This document shows, piece after piece, positions 9,062 through 60,751 of a stretch of 64,000 nt of DNA (positions are counted from its first letter, which is position 1; the number at the start of each line of letters is the position of its first letter). The DNA is from Actinocatenispora rupis (GTDB taxonomy: Bacteria > Actinomycetota > Actinomycetes > Mycobacteriales > Micromonosporaceae), in NCBI RefSeq assembly GCF_016861975.1, contig NZ_BOMB01000021.1:186001-250000 (forward strand), written 5' to 3'. A program made the position numbers and the translations under genes. The notes under the pieces are model-generated. The model was not told the DNA's origin. It worked only from the letters and a program-made list of their open reading frames with translations, and ran no database searches.

Positions 9062-10300
9062 ATGCGCAGGATCCTGATCGTCGGCGCCGGCCAGTGCGGG
9101 CTGCAGCTCGGGCTGGGGCTGCTGGCCGCCGGCTACGAGGTGACGATCATGTCGGCCCGGACGCCGGAGGAGATCCGTGCCGGCTGGCCGACGTCCACCC
9201 AGGCGATGTTCGAGCAGGCGCTGAACACCGAGCGCGCGCAGGGCCTGAACCTGTGGGACGACCCGGCGCCGAAGATCAACGGCATGCACATCGCGGTCGC
9301 CATGCCGCCCGGCACGATGGCGATGAGCATCATCGCCCACCTGAACTCGCCCGGTCAGTCGACGGACCAGCGGGTCAAGTTCCCGGCCTGGCTGGAACTG
9401 TTCGAGGAGCGCGGCGGCACGGTCATCTACCAGGGCGTCACGACCGGCGACCTGGACGGCCTCACCGCGCTCCTGCGGTACGACCTGACGATCGTGGCGG
9501 CCGGCAAGGGTGAGCTGACCGCGCTGTTCGACCGGGACGTGGACCGGTCGCCGTTCACCGTGCCGCAGCGCGGCCTGTCCGTGGCGTACGTGCACGGGCT
9601 GGCGCCGAACCCGTCGTACCCGGAGCGCAGCGGGGCGTTCAACGGGATCCCGGGCCTGGGCGAGATGTTCGCGATCCCGGGGTACACGCTGTCCGGCGAG
9701 TGCGACATCCTCTTCTTCGAGGCGGTGCCGGGCAGCCCGGCCGACATCTGGCAGAAGCGGCTGCCGCCCGACGAGCATCTGTCGCTGATGGTCAAGCAGG
9801 CCCGGGAGTACGCGCCGTGGCTGGGTGAGCGGTGCGACAACGTGGAGCTGACCGACGGCAAGGCGACCCTGTCCGGCCGGTACACGCCGGTGGTGCGGCG
9901 GCCGGTGGCGCAGCTGCCGTCCGGTGGGCTCGTGCTCGGCGCCGGTGACGTCGTCATCTCGAACGACCCGGTCACCGGGCAGGGCGCGAACGGTGCGGCG
10001 AAGATGGCCGCGGCGTACCTGGCGGCGATCGTGGCGCACGGCGACAAGCCGTTCGACCGGGAGTGGATGGAGCGTACGTTCGCCGACTTCTGGGAGACGT
10101 CGGGGCAGTGGGCGACCATGTGGACCAACGGCATGCTCGGCGAGATGCCGGAGCACGCGGCGAGGATCCTGATGAAGGCCACCACGCACACGCCGACCGC
10201 GGACCGGTTCGTCAACGGCTTCAGCGACCCGTCGGACTTCCAGCACTTCTTCTTCACACCGGAGGCGGCCGACGCGTACCTTGCGTCGATCGAGGAGTGA
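9062..10300 (+). CDS. Styrene/indole monooxygenase (StyA)-like FAD monooxygenase
   Basis: A 412-residue flavoprotein. The dinucleotide-binding GAGQCGLQLGLGL is at residues 8-20, and the family-typical SARTPEEIRAGWPTSTQAMF follows. The second FAD-contact region is GAGDVVISNDPVTGQGANGA near residue 300, with a C-terminal helical domain after it. StyA-type enzymes are group E flavin monooxygenases that epoxidise aryl alkenes or indole using FADH2 from a separate reductase (StyB). No StyB-like reductase is encoded in the window, so reduced flavin must come from elsewhere. The gene starts 30 bp after the conservon GTPase, the place where known conservons often carry a cytochrome P450, suggesting it is an effector of that module. 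Confidence 0.88.
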   Translation: MRRILIVGAGQCGLQLGLGLLAAGYEVTIMSARTPEEIRAGWPTSTQAMFEQALNTERAQGLNLWDDPAPKINGMHIAVAMPPGTMAMSIIAHLNSPGQSTDQRVKFPAWLELFEERGGTVIYQGVTTGDLDGLTALLRYDLTIVAAGKGELTALFDRDVDRSPFTVPQRGLSVAYVHGLAPNPSYPERSGAFNGIPGLGEMFAIPGYTLSGECDILFFEAVPGSPADIWQKRLPPDEHLSLMVKQAREYAPWLGERCDNVELTDGKATLSGRYTPVVRRPVAQLPSGGLVLGAGDVVISNDPVTGQGANGAAKMAAAYLAAIVAHGDKPFDREWMERTFADFWETSGQWATMWTNGMLGEMPEHAARILMKATTHTPTADRFVNGFSDPSDFQHFFFTPEAADAYLASIEE

Positions 10301-46964: not shown

Positions 46965-47777
46965 TCAGGCGGCGCCGTTCTCCTCGGCCTCCCGTTCGGC
47001 GCGCTTGGCGACCCGGAACGCCTCGTCGTCCATGCCGCGCCGCCAGTACCCGGAGATGGAGACCTGGTCGCGGTCGAGGCCGAGCGTGCCGAACAGGTGG
47101 CCGCGCAGCTCCTTCACCATGCCGGCCTCGCCGTGTACGAACACCTGGCCGCGGCCGGTGGGCAGGTCGAGCGCGCGGACCGCGGCGGGCAGCGTGTCGC
47201 CCGTACCGCGGTGCAGCCAGCGCACGGTGGTCGCGTCGCCGGTGTCGAGCGGCAGCTCCTCGTCCGGCCCGGCCACCTCGACGAACGCCCACGCCGGTAC
47301 GCCGGCCGGGACGCGCTCCAGCGCCGCCGCGATCGCCGGCAGGGCCGCCTCGTCACCCACCAGCAGGTGCCAGTCGGCCGCCTGGTCCGGCGCGTACGCC
47401 CCACCGGGGCCGAGGAACAGCACCTCGTCGCCCGGCTTGAGCCCGGCGGCCCACGGCCCGGCCAGACCCTCCTCCCCGTGGTACACGAAGTCGAGGACGA
47501 GCTCGTCGTCGGTGCACCGCCGCACCGTGTACGTCCGCAGTACCGGCCACTGCTCGCGCGGCAGCTGCTCGCGCGCGCTCGCCATGTCGAACGGCTCGGG
47601 GTAGTCCACCCCCGGCCGCCGGAAGATGATCTTCACGTACTGGTCGGAGTACGCGTTCGGCGTGAACTCCGCCAGCTCCGGCCCGCCCGCCACGATCCGT
47701 ACCAGGTGCGGGGTGAGCCACTCGGTGCGCAGCACCGTCAGGCGCGTGGTGCGCCCGCGCCCGGCCTTCTCGGGCAT
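46965..47777 (-). CDS. Siderophore-interacting protein (flavin-dependent ferric reductase)
   Basis: A 270-residue protein of the SIP family. The N-terminal FAD-binding half contains YVKIIFRRPG and RTYTVRR. The C-terminal NAD(P)H half contains HLLVGDEAALPAIAAALE, FVHGEAGMVKELRGHL and the closing VSISGYWRRGMDDEAF. SIP enzymes reduce ferric siderophores in the cytoplasm to release iron. An iron-box-like sequence at 47822-47838 lies 45 bp upstream, so repression by an IdeR/DmdR regulator under iron sufficiency is likely. No siderophore synthesis genes are in the window. Confidence 0.95.
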   Translation of the reverse strand: MPEKAGRGRTTRLTVLRTEWLTPHLVRIVAGGPELAEFTPNAYSDQYVKIIFRRPGVDYPEPFDMASAREQLPREQWPVLRTYTVRRCTDDELVLDFVYHGEEGLAGPWAAGLKPGDEVLFLGPGGAYAPDQAADWHLLVGDEAALPAIAAALERVPAGVPAWAFVEVAGPDEELPLDTGDATTVRWLHRGTGDTLPAAVRALDLPTGRGQVFVHGEAGMVKELRGHLFGTLGLDRDQVSISGYWRRGMDDEAFRVAKRAEREAEENGAA

Positions 47778-52258: not shown

Positions 52259-55200
52259 TCAGGGGATCCGGTCGCTGGCGCGGTTCGTGTCGCTTGTCGT
52301 GTCGGGGGATCGACTCGCGCCCGCGCTCGCGCTCTCGCCCGAGTTGCCGGGGACGTCCGCACCGTCGCCGGCCGCGACCGGTCCGGGCGAGCCGGGTGCC
52401 ACACCGGCACCGGGCGCACCGCTCGCTGTGCCGGTGGCGTACGCGGTGGTGAAGGTGGCGGGGGTGAGGGCGGCGCGGGCGGCGGCGGTGATGCGGTCGA
52501 CGTCGCCGCGTTCGGCGGGTGGGAGCGGCGCGCCGACGGACTCGCGGGCGTACGCGGCGGCGCCGAGGAGTTCGGCGGCGTGCCGCGGGTCGCCGGCGAG
52601 TACCGCGGCACCGGCCAGCCCCTCGTACGCGAGGGCGACGGCGCGCGGGTCACCGGTGCGGCGCGCGTACCGGAGGCTCTCTGCGTGGCGGGCGCGGGCG
52701 GTGCTGGCGTCGCCGCGGTGCTCGGCGACGAAGCCGAGTTCGGCGAGGATCAGCGTGGTGCCGGGGTGTCCGTCGAGGTCACGGCACCAGTCGAGCCAGC
52801 GGGTGAGGTGCCGTTCGGCGTCGTCGAGGCGGCCCTGGCGGCGGGCGGTCATGCCGAGCCCGACCTCGGCGAACTGCACGCCGCGCTGGTGGGACTGTTC
52901 GGCGGCGAGCCGCATCGCGGTGCCGTGCAGCGCCGCCGAGCCGTCGAGGTCGCCGGCCAGCAGCGCGAGCCGGCCGAGCCCCGCCACCTGGTACGACTCC
53001 TCGATGGTGAGGCCCAGCTCCCGTGCGTGCCGCAGCGACCGGCGGCGCAGCTCCCCGGCGCGTGCGTGGTCGCCGGCGATCTCCGCGAACGAGGCGAGCA
53101 GCTCGCCGGAACGGATCAGTCCCCAGCCGTCGCCCAGCTCGGCGAACAGCGCGGCCGAGCGTTCGGCGGCGCGGCGGGCGCCGGGCAGGTCGCCGGTCGG
53201 CAGGATCTGCGAGGCCCGGCTGGTGAGCGCCGCGGCCGTGCCCCAGCGGTCGCCGGCCGCCTCGAACCACGCCGCGGCCCGCCCGATCCGTCGCTCGCTC
53301 TCGGCCGGGTCGCCGGCCCCCACCGCGGCCATCGCCAGGAACCACTCCGCGTACGCCCGGTCCCGGCCGGCGGGCAGCGCCGCCACCGCCCGTTCCGCCG
53401 GGCCGAGCAGGCCAGTACCGTCGCCGAGGAGTACGGCGACGACGGCCCGGATCGCCGCCACCGCAAGCCTTTCCGTACCCGGGGTGGCCGGGACGGCGAG
53501 GGCGGCGGACAGCGCGCGGTGCGCCTCGCCGAGCCGCCCGCGCAGGAACCAGTACCACCACAGGGCCCGGACCATCCGGTACGCGTCGGCCGCGGCGCCG
53601 CGGTCGACGGCGTGGTCGAGCGCGGCGCGCAGGTTCGGCGTCTCCGCGTCGAGGGTGGCCAGCCAGCGGCGCTGGTCGGCGCCGCGCAGCAGCGGGTCGG
53701 CGCGCTCGGCCAGCGCCAGGTACCACTCCCGGTGGGCGAGCCGGGCGGCCGGCCCGTCACCCGACTCCGCCAACCGGTCCGTCGCGTACGCCGCGACCGA
53801 CTCCAGCATCCGGTAACGCCCGTCCGGTGCGGCGACCACCAGCGACCGCTCCACCAGCCCGGCCAGCATCCCCGGTACGTCCGCGGCGGTGACCGCGCCG
53901 CCGGCGCCGATCCGTACGGCGGCGGGCAGGGTCCAGCCGCCCGCGGTGACCGCGAGCCGGCGCAGGAGTACGCGGTCCGGGTCGGCGAGCAGGTCCCAGC
54001 TCCAGTCGAGCATCGCGCGCAGGCTGTGGTGCCGCGCCGGGGTGCCGCGCCGGCCGTCGAGCAGCCGGAACCGGTCGTCGAGCCGGGCCGCCAGCTCGCC
54101 CGGACCGAACGCGGCGAGCCGCGGCGCGGCCAGCTCCAACGCCAGCGGTACGCCGTCGAGCCGGGCGCAGATCGCCGCCACCGCGGGGTCCGCCGGGTCC
54201 ACGAGCGCCCCGGCCGCAGCGGCCCGCTCCACGAACAGCCGTACCGCGTCGGCGGGCGGCAGCGGGCCGACGGCGTACCGGATCTCGCCGGGGATGCCGA
54301 GCGGCGCCTGACCGGTCGCCAGGACGCGCAGCCCCGGCGCGGCCCGGAGCAGGTGGTCGGCCAGCTCCGCGGCGGGCGCCAGTACGTGTTCGCAGTTGTC
54401 GAGGACGAGCAGGGCGCGGCGGGCGCGGACGGCGGCGGCGAGCCGGTCGGGCAGCGCGCCACCACCCGCGTCCCGTACGCCGAGGGCCGCCGCGACGGCC
54501 TCCGCGACCCCGCCCGGGTCGGCCGACGTTCCGGTGAGGTCCACCAACCACACCCCGTCCGGTACGTCCGCGGCGAGGGCGGTGGCGGCGGCGAGCGCCA
54601 GCCGGGTCTTGCCCACCCCGCCCGGCCCCGTCAGGGTGACGAGCCGGGCGGCGCCGAGCCGGTCGACGACCTCGCGTACCGCGTCGTCCCGGCCGACCAG
54701 CGCGGTCAGCGGCACGGGCAGCGGCGTACCGGTGGGGCGCGGCGGGTCCAGCGTCGGGTCCTGGCGCAGGATCGCCCGGTGCAGCGCGACGAGCCGCGGC
54801 CCCGGATCGGTACCCAGCTCGTCGGCCAGCCGGGCGCGCAGCCCCGCGTACGACGTCAGCGCCTCGGCGACGCGGCCGGACCGGTAGAGCGCGCGCAGCG
54901 ACAGTTCGTGCAGCCGTTCCCGCAGCGGGTACGCGGCGGTCAGGTCCGCGAGGTCGACCGGCTCGCCCAGCTCCAGCCGTGCCTCGGCCAGGTCCTCGGT
55001 CGCCGCCAGCCGGGCCTCGGTGAGCCGCTGGATCTCGGCCCGCGCGTACGGTTCGTCCGCGACGTCCGCGTACGCCTCGCCGCGCCACACCTCCAGCGCC
55101 GCGGCCAGCCCGGCCGCCCGGGTCGCCGGATCGGTCGCCTGCCGGGCGGCCGCCACCGCGGCGGTGAACCGGTCCGCGTCCAGCTCGCCGTCCGCCAGCC

Positions 55201-55468
55201 GCAACGCGTACCCGGCCGGGCCGTAGCGGACGAGGTCGCGGTCGCCGAGCGCGCGGCGCAGCTGCGACACCTTCGCCTGGAGCGCGGCGGTCGGGTTGCC
55301 CGGCGCGGCGTCACCCCACAGGTCGGCGACGAGCCGGTCGGGCGGCACCGGACGCCCCGCGTACCGGAGGAGGTCGGTGAGGAGGGCACGGACCTTGGCG
55401 CCCGGTACGGGAACCGGAACGCCGGCGTCGGTCCACACCGCCAGCGGCCCGAGCACCCCGTATCGCAC
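52259..55468 (-). CDS. Second AfsR/SARP-like regulator with BTAD, NB-ARC and TPR domains
   Basis: A 1069-residue protein. OmpR-type winged helix (1-90, MRYGVLGPLAVWTDAGVPVPVPG), BTAD (95-240), NB-ARC with Walker A GPGGVGKTR at 281-289 and LLVLDNCEHVL as Walker B, and a long helical TPR-like C-terminus, ending in a Ser/Thr/Pro-rich tail. It differs from the first copy in the NB-ARC details (LTGPGGVGKT and LDNCEHV belong to the LuxR/ATPase-like subgroup). It is divergent from the imine-reductase pair with only 67 bp between, so control of that operon is likely by position. Confidence 0.95.
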   Translation of the reverse strand: MRYGVLGPLAVWTDAGVPVPVPGAKVRALLTDLLRYAGRPVPPDRLVADLWGDAAPGNPTAALQAKVSQLRRALGDRDLVRYGPAGYALRLADGELDADRFTAAVAAARQATDPATRAAGLAAALEVWRGEAYADVADEPYARAEIQRLTEARLAATEDLAEARLELGEPVDLADLTAAYPLRERLHELSLRALYRSGRVAEALTSYAGLRARLADELGTDPGPRLVALHRAILRQDPTLDPPRPTGTPLPVPLTALVGRDDAVREVVDRLGAARLVTLTGPGGVGKTRLALAAATALAADVPDGVWLVDLTGTSADPGGVAEAVAAALGVRDAGGGALPDRLAAAVRARRALLVLDNCEHVLAPAAELADHLLRAAPGLRVLATGQAPLGIPGEIRYAVGPLPPADAVRLFVERAAAAGALVDPADPAVAAICARLDGVPLALELAAPRLAAFGPGELAARLDDRFRLLDGRRGTPARHHSLRAMLDWSWDLLADPDRVLLRRLAVTAGGWTLPAAVRIGAGGAVTAADVPGMLAGLVERSLVVAAPDGRYRMLESVAAYATDRLAESGDGPAARLAHREWYLALAERADPLLRGADQRRWLATLDAETPNLRAALDHAVDRGAAADAYRMVRALWWYWFLRGRLGEAHRALSAALAVPATPGTERLAVAAIRAVVAVLLGDGTGLLGPAERAVAALPAGRDRAYAEWFLAMAAVGAGDPAESERRIGRAAAWFEAAGDRWGTAAALTSRASQILPTGDLPGARRAAERSAALFAELGDGWGLIRSGELLASFAEIAGDHARAGELRRRSLRHARELGLTIEESYQVAGLGRLALLAGDLDGSAALHGTAMRLAAEQSHQRGVQFAEVGLGMTARRQGRLDDAERHLTRWLDWCRDLDGHPGTTLILAELGFVAEHRGDASTARARHAESLRYARRTGDPRAVALAYEGLAGAAVLAGDPRHAAELLGAAAYARESVGAPLPPAERGDVDRITAAARAALTPATFTTAYATGTASGAPGAGVAPGSPGPVAAGDGADVPGNSGESASAGASRSPDTTSDTNRASDRIP

Positions 55469-55535
55469 GCCGGCAACGGTAGCCGGTCAGCCGATCGGCA
55501 GCCGACGGTAAGTGGTGGGCCGCACCGTGGCGGGC

Positions 55536-56396
55536 ATGACGAACAACCCACCGGTCACGGTGCTCGGGCTCGGCGCGATGGGGCGGGCGCTGGCCCGTAC
55601 GCTGCTCGCCGCCGGACACCCGACCACCGTCTGGAACCGCACCCCCGGCAAGGACGACGAGCTGGTCGCCGCCGGCGCCGTCCGCGCCGCCACGGTCGCC
55701 GACGCCGTCGCCGCGCACCGGATCGTGCTGGCCTGCCTGCTCACCAACGACACCGTCGACGAGGTACTCACCGGCGTACCGCTGGACGGGAGGATCCTCG
55801 TCAACCTCACCAACGGCACGCCCGCGCAGGCCCGCGCGCTCGCCACCGCGTACGGGCCGGACCGCTACCTGGACGGCGGGATCATGGCCGTGCCGCCGAC
55901 CATCGGCGGGCCGCACGCGTTCGTGCTGTACAGCGGCTCGGCCCCGGCGTACGACGAGGCGCGGCCGGCGCTGGAGACGTTCGGCGAGGCGCGCTACCTG
56001 GGTGCCGACCCCGGCCTCGCCGCGCTGCACGACATCGCCCTGCTGTCCGGCATGTACGGCATGGTCGGCGGCGTCCTGCACGCCCTCGCCCTCGTACGCG
56101 CCGCCGGGGTGTCCGCGACCGGGTTCGCCCCGCTGCTCACCCGCTGGCTCACCGCGATGGCCGGCGGCGTCGGCCGGTACGCGGCGCAGCTCGACGCCGG
56201 CGAGTACGGGCGCGACGTGGTGTCGAACCTCGGCATGCAGGCCGCCGCCTGGGACAACCTCACCGACACGGCCCGCGCGGAGGGCGTCGACCCGCGGCTG
56301 CTCGCCCCGCTCGGTGACCTGATGCGGCGCCGCGCCGCCGACCACCCGGACGAGGACCTCACCGGCATCGTCGAACTGTTGAAGGAGACCGCATGA
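55536..56396 (+). CDS. Imine reductase-like NAD(P)-dependent oxidoreductase, D-type
   Basis: A 286-residue beta-hydroxyacid-dehydrogenase-superfamily protein with the imine-reductase pattern. The NADP-binding GLGAMGRALARTLLAAGH leads; WNRTPGKDDEL suggests NADPH preference via the Arg. The long interdomain helix follows LDGGIMAVPPTIGG, and the active-site LAALHDIALLSGMYG has Asp166 at the catalytic position, making it D-type. A cap domain with WLTAMAGGVGRYA completes it. Its stop overlaps the next start (ATGA). These enzymes reduce cyclic imines, with few known natural substrates. The ribosome site is weak. Confidence 0.88.
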   Translation: MTNNPPVTVLGLGAMGRALARTLLAAGHPTTVWNRTPGKDDELVAAGAVRAATVADAVAAHRIVLACLLTNDTVDEVLTGVPLDGRILVNLTNGTPAQARALATAYGPDRYLDGGIMAVPPTIGGPHAFVLYSGSAPAYDEARPALETFGEARYLGADPGLAALHDIALLSGMYGMVGGVLHALALVRAAGVSATGFAPLLTRWLTAMAGGVGRYAAQLDAGEYGRDVVSNLGMQAAAWDNLTDTARAEGVDPRLLAPLGDLMRRRAADHPDEDLTGIVELLKETA

Positions 56397-57250
56397 GCAC
56401 GCCCGTCACCGTCCTCGGACTGGGCCCGATGGGTCGCGGGATGGCCCGCGCACTGCTGGCCGCCGGCCACCCGACGACCGTCTGGAACCGTACGCCGGGC
56501 CGCGCCGACGAGCTCGTCACCGCCGGTGCCGTACCGGCCGGGAGTCCCGGTGCGGCGGTCGCGGCGAGCCCGCTGACCATCCTCAGCCTCACCGACTACC
56601 AGGCGATGTACGACATCCTCGGCGACGTCGACCTCGCCGGCCGGGTGCTCGTCAACCTCAGCTCCGACACCCCGGAACGCACGCGCGAGGCCGCGACGTG
56701 GGCGGCCGGCCGCGGCGCCCGGTTCGTCGCCGGCGGTGTCATGGTGCCCGCCCCGCTCCTCGGCACCGACGCCGCGTACGTCTACTACTCGGGCGACGAG
56801 GCCGCGTTCGACGAGTACGCGGGGGTGCTGGCGCGGATCGGTCGGCCGCACCGGCTCGGCCCCGACCCCGCCCTCGCCCAGCTGTACTACCAGGCGAACC
56901 TCGACATGTTCCTCACCGCGCTCGCCGGGTACCTGCACGCGACGGCGCTGGTCGGCAGCGCCGGGGTGAGCGCCGCCGAGTTCGCGCCGTGGGCGGCGGA
57001 CCTGTTCGACTCGCTGTCCGCGTACCTGCCGGCGGCGGCCGGGCACATCGACAGCGGCGAGCACCCGGGGACGTTGAGTACCGTCCGGATGATGGGGGCG
57101 ACGGCCGACCACGTCGTCGGCGCCAGCGACGCCGCCGGCCTCCACACCGGCCTGCCCGCCGCCGTCCGCGACCTGTACGACCGGGCCGTCGCCGCAGGTC
57201 ACGCCACGGACAACTGGACCAGCTTGATCGACGTCATCCGGACACCCTGA
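56393..57250 (+). CDS. Imine reductase-like NAD(P)-dependent oxidoreductase, Y-type
   Basis: A 285-residue paralogue of the upstream gene with GLGPMGRGMARALLAAGH and WNRTPGRADEL at the N-terminus and VAGGVMVPAPLLG before the interdomain helix. The catalytic position reads LAQLYYQANLDMF: Tyr166 aligns with Asp166 of the partner, so this is Y-type. C-terminal helices include HIDSGEHPGTLSTVRMMGATADHV. Translation is coupled to the D-type gene by an ATGA overlap. The last 17 bp overlap the convergent SCO6045-like gene. Two active-site types in one operon suggest two related imines or opposite faces. Confidence 0.88.
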   Translation: MSTPVTVLGLGPMGRGMARALLAAGHPTTVWNRTPGRADELVTAGAVPAGSPGAAVAASPLTILSLTDYQAMYDILGDVDLAGRVLVNLSSDTPERTREAATWAAGRGARFVAGGVMVPAPLLGTDAAYVYYSGDEAAFDEYAGVLARIGRPHRLGPDPALAQLYYQANLDMFLTALAGYLHATALVGSAGVSAAEFAPWAADLFDSLSAYLPAAAGHIDSGEHPGTLSTVRMMGATADHVVGASDAAGLHTGLPAAVRDLYDRAVAAGHATDNWTSLIDVIRTP

Positions 57251-57731
57251 CCCGCCCGAACGCCTGCACGGCGACGGCGCCGCCGACCCGGCGTACCGCG
57301 GGGAGGCGGCGCCGGCGTGGCGCGGACTCCCCGTCGTACCGGGCGGTGGCCTCGCGGGCGGCCAGTTCGGCGGCAGCCGGCGGGGGCAACGTGCCGGCCG
57401 TGGCCAGCTCGCGCGCCAGGTCCCAGCCGTCCCGCAGCGCGCCCGCCGGCACCCGGCCGTCCGCCCACTGTGCGAACGTCGCCGCGAAGTCCGGACACGA
57501 CCCGGCCAGCAGCGGCCACACCCGGCGTACCTCGCCGGATCGCTTGCGCAGCAACGCCCGGCGGGCCACCCCGAGGTCGTCGGCGTCGAACCCGGCCGGC
57601 ACCGTACCGCCGGCGACCAGTGCCGCGACCAGCTCCGCCTGCCGCGCCGCCAACTCCGCCCGCGCATCGGGTGCCGGCTCGCCCATCCGCCGATCCGGGC
57701 GCGGCGGCGGGTCGGGGACCGCTGCGTTCAT
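57234..57731 (-). CDS. SCO6045-like partner protein of the MNIO enzyme
   Basis: A 165-residue protein with an N-terminal Pro/Arg-rich stretch, then ARQAELVAALVAGGTVPAGFD, RRALLRKRSGEVRRVWPLLAG and PDFAATFAQWADGRVPAGAL. This matches what I recall as the SCO6045-like C-terminal domain found beside DUF692 genes in actinobacteria, distantly similar to the partner (HI or MbnC-like) proteins of other MNIO systems. Its start overlaps the MNIO stop (ATGA), so the pair is coupled. It may bind the substrate or its leader; that is inferred from the family setting. Confidence 0.7.
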   Translation of the reverse strand: MNAAVPDPPPRPDRRMGEPAPDARAELAARQAELVAALVAGGTVPAGFDADDLGVARRALLRKRSGEVRRVWPLLAGSCPDFAATFAQWADGRVPAGALRDGWDLARELATAGTLPPPAAAELAAREATARYDGESAPRRRRLPAVRRVGGAVAVQAFGRVRVSG

Positions 57732-58546
57732 CCGGTGATCCGGGGGTACCCGGCGGCGTCGGCCAGCGCGTCGAGTTCGCGGCGCAGCTCGGCGGCGGGC
57801 GGGTAGTGGCCGTCGCGTTCGAGCATCAGGGCCGGCGGGCGCCGCCGCGCGCACAGGGCCGCCACCAGCTCGTACACCTCCGGCGGGGTCGGGTCGGTGT
57901 GCGTGTCGTGGTACCGGCCGTCGTGCTCGGACCCGCCGGCCACGTGCACGTACGCGACGCGGTCGAGGGGGAGGCGGTCGAGCAGCGCGGCTGGATCCTG
58001 GCCGCGGTTGCGGGCGTTGGCGTACACGTTGGCGAGGTCGAGGAGCAGCAGCGCGCCGGTCCGGTCGAGCAGCTCGGTCAGGAAGTCCGCCTCCTCGTAC
58101 TCCGCGTCGGGCCAGTCGAACAGCGCCGCGATCGGCTCCAACGCCAGCGGTACGGGCAGCTCGGCCTGCGTGGCGCGGACGTTGGCGACGAGTACGGCGA
58201 GGGAGTCCCGGGTACGCGGGACGGGCAGCAGGTGGCCGGCCTCGACGCCACCGCCGCGGACGAACGCGACATGCTCGCTGACCAGCGGCGCGGACAGCGC
58301 GTCGGCGGCGGCGGCGAGCCGGGCCACCCGCGCCGGGTCGACAGGGTCGGCGCCGCCCAGGGACAGCCGGGTGCCGTGCGGGACGACGGTGACGTCGCGG
58401 TCGCGGAGCGCGGCGAGCAGCGCGGGCGGACCGTCCGGCGGCAGCGACTCGGCGACCACCTCGGTGAACCGCAGACCGGGCAGATCCCGTACCACGCCGG
58501 CGATCTCGGGCCGCCAGCCGATGCCGACCCCCAGCTCCGGCATCAT
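57728..58546 (-). CDS. DUF692 multinuclear non-heme iron oxidative enzyme (MNIO)
   Basis: A 272-residue TIM-barrel enzyme of the MbnB/TglH/ChrH family. Predicted iron ligands all appear present: His57 (VPHGTR), Glu91/His92 (SEHVAF), His105 (GHLLP), Glu137 (LEPIAAL), Asp170 and Asn173 (DLANVYAN), His201 (YVHVAGG), Asp214 and His216 (HDTHTDP), Glu243 (LERDG). MNIOs oxidatively remodel Cys residues of ribosomally made peptides, for example to oxazolone-thioamide or thiooxazole. ATG 58546 overlaps the stop of the upstream TIGR04222 gene (ATGA), which ends in a Cys-Gly-rich tail; the partner gene overlaps its own stop. Confidence 0.93.
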   Translation of the reverse strand: MMPELGVGIGWRPEIAGVVRDLPGLRFTEVVAESLPPDGPPALLAALRDRDVTVVPHGTRLSLGGADPVDPARVARLAAAADALSAPLVSEHVAFVRGGGVEAGHLLPVPRTRDSLAVLVANVRATQAELPVPLALEPIAALFDWPDAEYEEADFLTELLDRTGALLLLDLANVYANARNRGQDPAALLDRLPLDRVAYVHVAGGSEHDGRYHDTHTDPTPPEVYELVAALCARRRPPALMLERDGHYPPAAELRRELDALADAAGYPRITG

Positions 58547-59553
58547 CCGCCGCACCCCCCGCATCCGCCGCCGCCACAGCCACCACCACCGCAGCCGTGC
58601 CCGCCACATCCGTGGCCCCCGGCGTCACCGCCGCCGCACCCGCCGCCGAGACCGCTGGTGAACAGCGCGCCGGACGCCGCCGCGGTGCCCGCCGCGTACC
58701 CGGTGGCCGGCTTGGGCCGGAACGCCCGCCGCATCACCGCATCCTTGCGTACCGGCAGGTGGGCGGCGAGGTCGGGATCGGCGACGGCCACCGCCTCGTG
58801 GCCGTACAGGGCGACGCTGAGCGCCGCGCCGGCCGGCCCGTACGTCCGCCAGCTCGGGCGCATCCCCGGCGCGAGGTCCCCGTGCCGGGCGCGCAGCCGC
58901 CGCAGGACAGCGCTGCGGTGCCCGTGCCCGCCACGTACGCGGGGGGCGACGAGGATCGTGAGGACGACCGTGCCGACGATCTCGACCAGCATCAGCAGCT
59001 TCAGGTAGAGCGCCTGCTCGGGCGTGCCGGTGCCGGCGACCAGCCGGGCCACCCCGAGCGCGAGGACCGGCAGCGCGACCAGCCACGCGTACCGGCGCCA
59101 GCGCGGCACCGCCTGCGGCGTCAGGCCCAACCGGCCGACCCGCGCGGCGACCGCGTCCAGCTCGTCCACGATCCGCCGGTGCGCCCGCAGGTACCGCTGG
59201 TGCCGCCCGTCGCCCGCCGCCGCGTGCACCCGTACGGACAGCCGGGGCAGGTCGTCGGGCAGCGGCACCGGCCGCGCGGCGAGCGCACCGTCGGCGCGCA
59301 CGTCCAGCGCGTCCACCGCCCGCAGCGCCGCGCACGCGGCCAGCACCACCAGATCCCGCCCCGCGTTCAGGTACGCCACCTCCAGCGGCGCCCCGTCCAG
59401 CCGCGCCACCACACCGTCCATGGTGGACAGACGCTCCGGTACGACCCGGCGCAGCAGCGCCACGCCCGCCGTCGACACCACGACCAGCACCACGTACGCC
59501 ACCAGGAACGCGCCGTCCCCGATCCGCCACGCGCCATCCGCGAACCCCTGCAC
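58543..59553 (-). CDS. TIGR04222 membrane protein with Cys/Gly/His-rich C-terminal tail
   Basis: A 336-residue protein. One N-terminal span (AFLVAYVVLVVVSTAGVALL), a soluble TIGR04222 region (LEVAYLNAGRDLVVLAACAALRA), and two central spans (YAWLVALPVLALGVARLVAG; LLMLVEIVGTVVLTILVAP). A segment LAPGMRPSWRTYGPAGAALSVALYG then leads into about 36 terminal residues made almost only of Gly, six Cys and two His (motifs HGCGG and GGGGC). GTG 59553 has GGAGG 7 bp upstream. The tail is positioned like a substrate for the coupled MNIO enzyme, which starts at the overlapping ATG. Function of TIGR04222 proteins is unknown. Confidence 0.88.
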   Translation of the reverse strand: MQGFADGAWRIGDGAFLVAYVVLVVVSTAGVALLRRVVPERLSTMDGVVARLDGAPLEVAYLNAGRDLVVLAACAALRAVDALDVRADGALAARPVPLPDDLPRLSVRVHAAAGDGRHQRYLRAHRRIVDELDAVAARVGRLGLTPQAVPRWRRYAWLVALPVLALGVARLVAGTGTPEQALYLKLLMLVEIVGTVVLTILVAPRVRGGHGHRSAVLRRLRARHGDLAPGMRPSWRTYGPAGAALSVALYGHEAVAVADPDLAAHLPVRKDAVMRRAFRPKPATGYAAGTAAASGALFTSGLGGGCGGGDAGGHGCGGHGCGGGGCGGGGCGGCGG

Positions 59554-59705
59554 CGCGCCACCTCCGCCCGGCTCACCGCTCCGCCGTGGTACGCCCCGTC
59601 GCCATCGTCGCCGACCCGGGCCACCCCGACCACAGCGTCCCGCAGCCGGCCGGGGACCAGTCCCCACCAGTACCGGAAAGGCAGGCGCGGCAAGCGATCC
59701 GCGGG

Positions 59706-60602
59706 TCAGCCGCCGCAGCCGCCGCCACCGCCGCAGCTCGACCCGCCGCCGCAACTCGACGAACTGGAGCCGCTGTCGGACGAGCCGCCCGAGCCGCCCG
59801 ACGACGGCTGGCTCAGCCCGAGACCGCCGGCGAACGTCGGGTCGGCGGCCCACAACGCGGCCACCCCGAACACGCCGACGCTCAGCGCCGCCTTGTTCGG
59901 CCCGTAGCTGGACCAGCTGGGCTTCATGCCGGGCGACAGCGCGTGGTTGCGCTGGCGTACCTGCTGGAGGGCGCGCTGGCCGGCGGGCGTCGCGCGGCGG
60001 ACCGTCACCTGGTAGGCGATCGTGGCGATCGCGACGGCGATCAGCAGCAGCACCAGGTTGCCGACCGGGCGGCCGTTGTCGATGCCCGCCACCAGCCGCA
60101 CCACACCGAGACCGAGTACGGCGGCCAGCAGCAGGCCGATGCCCCGCTGCGCGCGCCGCGCGGAGTCGGTGACGAGCAGCCCGGCGCGGGTCAGCCGGTC
60201 GGCGGTCGCCGCCAGCTCCGTCGCGACCGCCGGCTGCGCGGGGAGCGCGCCGAGCCGGACCGGCCGGGCCGCCGCCTGGTACACGTACCAGGAGAGTCGC
60301 GGCAGGTCCGGCGGCAGGTCGACCGGTCGCGCCACGACCGTCCTGCGCGAGTCGGTGGCCAGCGCCCCCGCGGCCTTCAACGCCCCGCAGGCCGCGAGTA
60401 CCGCGAGCGTCGGCCCCTTGTTCAGGTACGCCGCGTCGACCGGTGTCGCCGCCAGGTCCACCGCCGGCACGTCCCGCGGACCGCTCCGCACCACCGCCCG
60501 CCGTGCCACGAGGACGACGACGAGCGTCACCACCGCGAGCACCGCGTACAGGCCGAGGAACGCCGGCCCGCTGATTCCCCACGTGTCCGCCGCCATCGGC
60601 AC
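59706..60602 (-). CDS. Second TIGR04222 membrane protein with Ser/Gly/Cys-rich tail
   Basis: A 298-residue paralogue. N-terminal span FLGLYAVLAVVTLVVVLVA, then DAAYLNKGPTLAVLAACGALKAAG, paired central spans (GIGLLLAAVLGLGVVRLVAG; LVLLLIAVAIATIAYQVTV), and LSPGMKPSWSSYGPNKAALSVGVFG, which is nearly the same as in the downstream copy. It ends with a Ser/Gly tail carrying three Cys in CGG contexts. GTG 60602 follows AAAGGGGG. It leads the four-gene set; a 152-bp gap separates it from the second copy. It shares the tail idea but with fewer Cys. Confidence 0.85.
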   Translation of the reverse strand: MPMAADTWGISGPAFLGLYAVLAVVTLVVVLVARRAVVRSGPRDVPAVDLAATPVDAAYLNKGPTLAVLAACGALKAAGALATDSRRTVVARPVDLPPDLPRLSWYVYQAAARPVRLGALPAQPAVATELAATADRLTRAGLLVTDSARRAQRGIGLLLAAVLGLGVVRLVAGIDNGRPVGNLVLLLIAVAIATIAYQVTVRRATPAGQRALQQVRQRNHALSPGMKPSWSSYGPNKAALSVGVFGVAALWAADPTFAGGLGLSQPSSGGSGGSSDSGSSSSSCGGGSSCGGGGGCGG

Positions 60603-60723
60603 GTCGGCCCCCTTTCGCCCGCCCCATTCTGCGGTACTCCCGCACCCGTCGCCGTCCGTCGACCGGACGGTGCCCGTCGCCCGGGGCGGATCCGGCTCCG
60701 TTGTGCCGATCCGTACGGACGAC

Positions 60724-60751
60724 GGAGGGCCCGCCGGGTGGCGGGCCCTCC
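60724..60751 (-). terminator. Strong hairpin after the aconitase gene
   Basis: A perfect 12-bp stem, GGAGGGCCCGCC at 60724-60735 with GGCGGGCCCTCC at 60740-60751, closes a 4-nt loop, 14 bp past the aconitase stop. There is no T tract, as is common in actinomycetes. Confidence 0.75.

Follow-up and report, generated by a model that had tools for sequence, protein, structure and literature searches.

The window analysed here, a stretch of 64,000 nucleotides of the Actinocatenispora rupis genome, carries on its minus strand one unit composed of four genes (T1, T2, MNIO and partner), with two short sequence elements ahead of it:

60724-60751, no strand assigned: 12-bp perfect inverted repeat with a 4-base loop, between the aconitase gene and T1 (read from the sequence)
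60625-60631, minus strand: CAGAATG, candidate -10 promoter element of T1 (pattern match, putative function)
59706-60602, minus strand: T1, TIGR04222 membrane protein, 298 amino acids from a GTG start, 296 from the ATG at 60596
58543-59553, minus strand: T2, TIGR04222 membrane protein, 336 amino acids
57728-58546, minus strand: MNIO (DUF692; MbnB/TglH/ChrH family), 272 amino acids
57234-57731, minus strand: partner, PME-type 2-like, 165 amino acids

ATGA overlaps are present at T2/MNIO and at MNIO/partner, while the gap of 152 nt between T1 and T2 means that no overlap joins T1. The initial annotation had described two tailed TIGR04222 proteins, an MNIO and its partner, the last three joined by ATGA, and coordinates, profiles and overlaps all agree with it. 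T1 likely has a promoter of its own, as suggested by the CAGAATG element. Of 71 related loci, 50 have a CACAATG-like element in the 130 nt ahead of the TIGR04222 gene by a loose pattern and 47 by a strict one, the pattern having been picked after inspection of 16 of these 71 loci; among 694 control stretches the loose pattern occurs in 3. The inverted repeat, which has no T run, is terminator-like and may act as a terminator.

The gene 5' of the unit is, as read from its sequence, an aconitase; acnA is found inside the flank in 5 of the 80 loci which were retrieved with the MNIO as query (the named set). On the 3' side are two RedAm-like oxidoreductases and a BTAD regulator, the tandem oxidoreductase pair and the regulator, on the opposite strand, being located at window positions 55512-57250 and 52259-55468. 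As first annotated, neither a peptidase nor an exporter gene directly adjoins the unit. Among 28 recurrent neighbour families, named mostly by eye, no fixed metal gene adjoining the module was recognised. Elsewhere in the window are a siderophore-interacting-protein family gene (46965-47777; PF04954, PF08021) and the gene of a styrene monooxygenase substrate-binding domain protein (9062-10300; PF17885).

The two TIGR04222 matches and the single PF05114 match of the whole genome all lie in this unit, and 72 of the 80 named loci share its architecture, with a Cys-tailed TIGR04222-type ORF directly upstream of the MNIO, so the grouping is beyond chance. Six of the remaining eight loci are cut by a contig end, one (L208) is tailless and one (L267) has no TIGR04222 gene at this place and a Cys-tailed one elsewhere in the genome. 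Since the named set was retrieved by the MNIO query, it informs on architecture and not on co-occurrence.

The membrane proteins and the placement of their tails

T1 and T2 score 134.5 and 70.4 bits against TIGR04222, both over the NCBIfam cut-off of 43. Within the last 60 amino acids T1 has three Cys and T2 six Cys and two His, and both proteins terminate in CGG. The same terminus, with Cys third from the end, is present in 63 of 71 tails of the named set, where the most frequent Cys spacing is 6. A Cys is among the last five residues in 43 of 51 tails from a draw of 296 genomes of the class (the class draw).

The soluble domain of the TIGR04222 proteins may distantly resemble GPP34/GOLPH3. 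T1 remains below the PF05719 (GPP34) cut-off and is not matched even at an E of 5, one weak match (E 0.072) was found among 58 T1 homologues, and Foldseek with the T1 model returned nothing at E up to 0.001; one of 30 entries of the GPP34 locus set, a partial one, was omitted. Such a link would give the TIGR04222 family its first structural hypothesis.

Basic residues are concentrated in the segment linking TM1 to TM2 and downstream of TM3. The AlphaFold2 model of T1 (58 sequences, pLDDT 87.4, pTM 0.80), in which no membrane is modelled, predicts helices at 10-37, 144-173 and 179-197 and disorder at 268-296; it breaks the fourth hydrophobic stretch, with high pLDDT, into helices of 4, 11, 7 and 6 residues. 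In a dG-like sum with weights set by us, 73 sequences of the named set have medians of -0.86, 0.63 and -0.89 for TM1-3 and of 2.10 for the fourth stretch, and 50 sequences of the class draw have medians of -0.55, 1.28 and -0.08 versus 4.95; the fourth stretch scores 3.34 in T1 and 5.93 in T2. In the named set this stretch is just moderately poor, 44% of the sequences scoring under 2, and from there to the first Cys there are more acidic than basic residues (3.53 versus 1.37), which gives no support for an inside location, so that the sequence alone is ambiguous at this point. Charge pattern, hydropathy and model taken together, the proteins probably have three TM helices and a cytosolic tail. 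The predicted arrangement would include an N-terminal TM helix with the N-terminus outside and a cytosolic GPP34-like domain into which a TM hairpin is inserted; the tail would follow as a disordered cytosolic segment whose Cys lie amid Gly and Ser and whose terminus is Cys-Gly-Gly.

Antoine et al. 2025 (PMC12452194) argue from predicted topology for a periplasmic tail. The tail would then be an MNIO substrate modified in the cytosol, translocated, and acting outside like a tethered bufferin. The fourth segment of T1 (237-253) is indeed moderately hydrophobic, and the acidic residues which follow this segment in the named set point the same way. We consider an outside tail unlikely, as the best 17-residue span of the fourth stretch includes charged residues or His in 38 of 50 Cys-tailed proteins (two or more in 22), the model breaks the stretch into short helices, and six basic residues come after it in T2.

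The MNIO and its partner protein

The MNIO scores 254.9 bits against PF05114 (Pfam cut-off 25). The iron ligands given for TglH in PMC10880893 are His71, His107, Glu151, Asp184, Asn187, His216, Asp229, His231 and Glu258, and all nine are identical in the alignment with the window MNIO. The full set is present in 78 of the 86 MNIO matches of the class draw, the remaining eight being fragments or divergent. The enzyme is no BufB by the equivalog NF050167, against which it scores 176.7 bits with a cut-off of 310.

The partner has no match in Pfam or NCBIfam, nor by sequence to solved chains. An ORF overlapping the MNIO by 4 nt follows in 74 of the 80 named loci. The partner profile matches the domain at the C-terminus of fused MNIOs with an hhalign probability of 98.8 (P 6.3e-17, 36% identity over 120 columns), and these MNIO-partner fusions were found in one bacterial family, f18, which is Streptomyces-like as judged from neighbouring genes. 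The model of the PME-type 2 proteins in PMC12452194 is a 158-residue protein of Micromonospora matsumotoense; the partner at locus L196 is also 158 amino acids long and is 60% identical to the window partner. As expected of a PME-type 2 partner, the window partner follows the MNIO, has no DUF2063 signature and is homologous to the published example. An ordinary DUF2063 protein was considered and rejected, as the signature is absent in both Pfam and NCBIfam and three BufC-like proteins were not matched in a profile comparison (P 0.18). By sequence, DUF2063 matches one of 50 partner homologues (E 0.018).

In the f18 loci L093, L078 and L080 the fusions are located near genes for a DUF4142 protein, a TAP-like hydrolase, a flavin amine-oxidase-type (HemY-like) protein and chlorite dismutase/HemQ. 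In L093, the f18 locus scanned, the MNIO fusion is followed by the DUF4142 protein, a tailless TIGR04222 protein and the TAP-like hydrolase, so that in this case a peptidase-like gene adjoins.

Co-occurrence of Cys tails with the MNIO

A protein was counted as Cys-tailed when its last 80 residues held three or more [GSA]C[GSA] and G+S+C made up 40% or more of its last 40. TIGR04222 is found at E up to 0.001 in 109 genomes of the class draw; the 84 with a match over the cut-off were used, and genomes with matches only below it and second pieces of split hits were omitted. MNIO is present in 76 genomes, and 62 have both. Of the 84 genomes, 45 have tail and MNIO, one the tail only, 17 MNIO only and 21 neither (Fisher p 1.4e-8), raw counts which are inflated by shared descent, the module occupying lineage-specific slots (neighbours named mostly by eye). 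The single tail without a counted MNIO (genome G067) is followed by a truncated MNIO reading frame that runs into the contig end, so that all 46 genomes with a Cys-Gly tail have an MNIO, one of them as a contig-end fragment only. The initial annotation would have been contradicted by Cys tails being equally common in genomes without DUF692, and on these 84 genomes it stands. By gene, the tail is present in 44 of 63 TIGR04222 proteins with an adjacent MNIO, in 6 of 22 with the MNIO elsewhere in the genome and in 1 of 23 with none. At the level of genera (n=33), 22 have both, nine neither, one MNIO only and one the tail only (the contig-end case); the MNIO of the MNIO-only genus (g88) scores 366 bits versus about 250 for the window type. 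Among 32 MNIO matches without an over-cut-off TIGR04222, ten adjoin a Cys-Gly-tailed ORF (13 found, three judged spurious by eye).

A Cys tail on the same strand is found at 41 of 54 TIGR04222-adjacent MNIOs by a mechanical frame-based search, versus 40 of 54 by the count used here, one locus being different. Fourteen of the 54 MNIO-TIGR04222 operons, 13 of them in f18 and one in genome G160, have no Cys-tailed TIGR04222 protein, and their MNIOs retain the full ligand set. In Virgisporangium aurantiacum the single TIGR04222 protein is tailless and next to an intact MNIO. A phylum-wide draw of 246 genomes, some of them common to the class draw, contributed little, with TIGR04222 over the cut-off in 11 and MNIO in 15. 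In this draw over-cut-off TIGR04222 outside the class is confined to a pair of genomes from the same genus; the first has a single-Cys tail next to an MNIO, the second is cut by a contig end and no MNIO was found in it. At locus L277, outside the class, the lone Cys is third from the end and the gene directly precedes an overlapping MNIO. From L277 and the tailless loci it follows that a many-Cys tail is not needed for MNIO retention. Another target for the MNIO, with the Cys-tailed protein in an auxiliary role, for instance as anchor or metal donor to the enzyme, would account for the 14 operons and for V. aurantiacum; it would not account for Cys tails not being found without an MNIO in the class draw, and we regard it as quite improbable.

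None of the 21 MNIO-less genomes has a Cys tail, and some of them retain Gly/Ser tails without Cys. When only Gly/Ser-tailed proteins are compared, Cys tails are present in 44 of 45 with the MNIO adjacent, in 6 of 13 with it elsewhere and in 1 of 11 with none (Fisher p 1.2e-6), a control which counters a chance origin of the Cys within Gly tracts. A quick tree was built from the TIGR04222 bodies without tails (105 rows, three of the 108 proteins, under 42 bits, being omitted). Nine independent pairs on it differ in the tail; MNIO adjacency differs the same way in a mean of 6.0, the opposite way in 0.0 and not at all in 3.0 (median p 0.031, range 0.0156-0.125). The tree-corrected comparison for an MNIO anywhere in the genome is not significant (2.2 the same way, 0.0 opposite, 6.8 without difference; median p 0.5). 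That low-complexity tails acquired their Cys by chance from GC-rich Gly codons, for which the lineage-specific slots of the module and the inflation of raw counts by descent could be cited, is highly improbable, given that 10 of the 11 Gly/Ser tails in MNIO-less genomes have no Cys (the eleventh is the contig-end case), that on average no independent pair opposes MNIO adjacency, and that Cys occupies position -3 in 63 of 71 tails.

Proposed function and known systems

We infer, with a probability of about 0.6, that the unit is a membrane-tethered counterpart of RiPP modification, in which the cytosolic TIGR04222 tail would be modified by the MNIO and its partner and the product retained in the membrane. 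The cytosolic enzyme and partner would dock on the tail at the membrane face. Other Cys-modifying MNIOs make thiooxazole or oxazolone/thioamide, and the MNIO would oxidise at least one tail Cys, most likely to one of these. Kept in the membrane, the product might form an array active in metal binding or redox chemistry. The initial annotation had named the tails as the substrates; co-occurrence, adjacency, operon architecture and the MNIO-partner fusion support this, while the MNIOs persisting beside Cys-tail-less TIGR04222 proteins, mostly in f18, speak against it. Its membrane-retained product is consistent with our data, since the tail forms the C-terminus of an integral membrane protein; this tail probably faces the cytosol.

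More tentatively, this may be a resident system in which the MNIO turns the C-terminal tail of a GOLPH3-like membrane protein into a heterocycle array, serving as a redox or metal buffer at the inner membrane face, perhaps in oxidative stress. In Streptomyces coelicolor the MNIO is presumably SCO6045. According to PMC4991794, SCO6045 is 3.01-fold up with H2O2, alongside cysteine-synthesis genes, and the response is lost without HbpS-SenS-SenR. SCO6041 and SCO6042 are given as protoporphyrinogen oxidase and chlorite dismutase in PMC5069765; the proximity of SCO6045 to them fits the f18 loci, where the MNIO neighbours such genes.

The substrate idea is already published as a hypothesis: PMC12452194 proposes TIGR04222 proteins as putative substrates of MNIOs with PME-type 2 partners, and reports MNIO to be absent from 490 of 1372 TIGR04222 genomes and more than a quarter of TIGR04222 proteins to have no C-proximal Cys. 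No experimental test of TIGR04222-MNIO proteins was found in the literature searched, largely open-access papers. Added here are the tail-MNIO co-occurrence test, the probable cytosolic topology, the possible GPP34 likeness and the MNIO-partner fusion in one family. If the tail is modified and retained in the membrane, MNIO chemistry would extend from free peptides to resident membrane proteins of many Actinomycetes. Co-occurrence reduces the range of likely substrates, the predicted three-helix topology indicates where a modified tail should be sought, and the single-Cys relative at L277 is a simple candidate substrate.

The nearest known systems are the TIGR04222/MNIO/PME-type 2 clusters of PMC12452194, which have identical protein families and gene order; the window differs in its tandem TIGR04222 pair, in a tail argued to be cytosolic and in a soluble domain tentatively tied to GPP34. 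GPP34/GOLPH3/Vps74 is itself among the candidate nearest systems for this soluble domain. The bufferins and oxazolins (BufABC, HvfABC) likewise combine an MNIO with a partner, and BufB and HvfB give the best NCBIfam scores of the window MNIO; however, these scores are under the cut-offs, the partner is without the DUF2063 signature, and the candidate substrate is a membrane protein and not a signal-peptide precursor. With TglHI and MbnBC the unit shares the nine iron ligands, as in TglH, and Cys close to the C-terminus, whereas a free precursor peptide is absent here and the partner is unmatched by sequence to solved chains.
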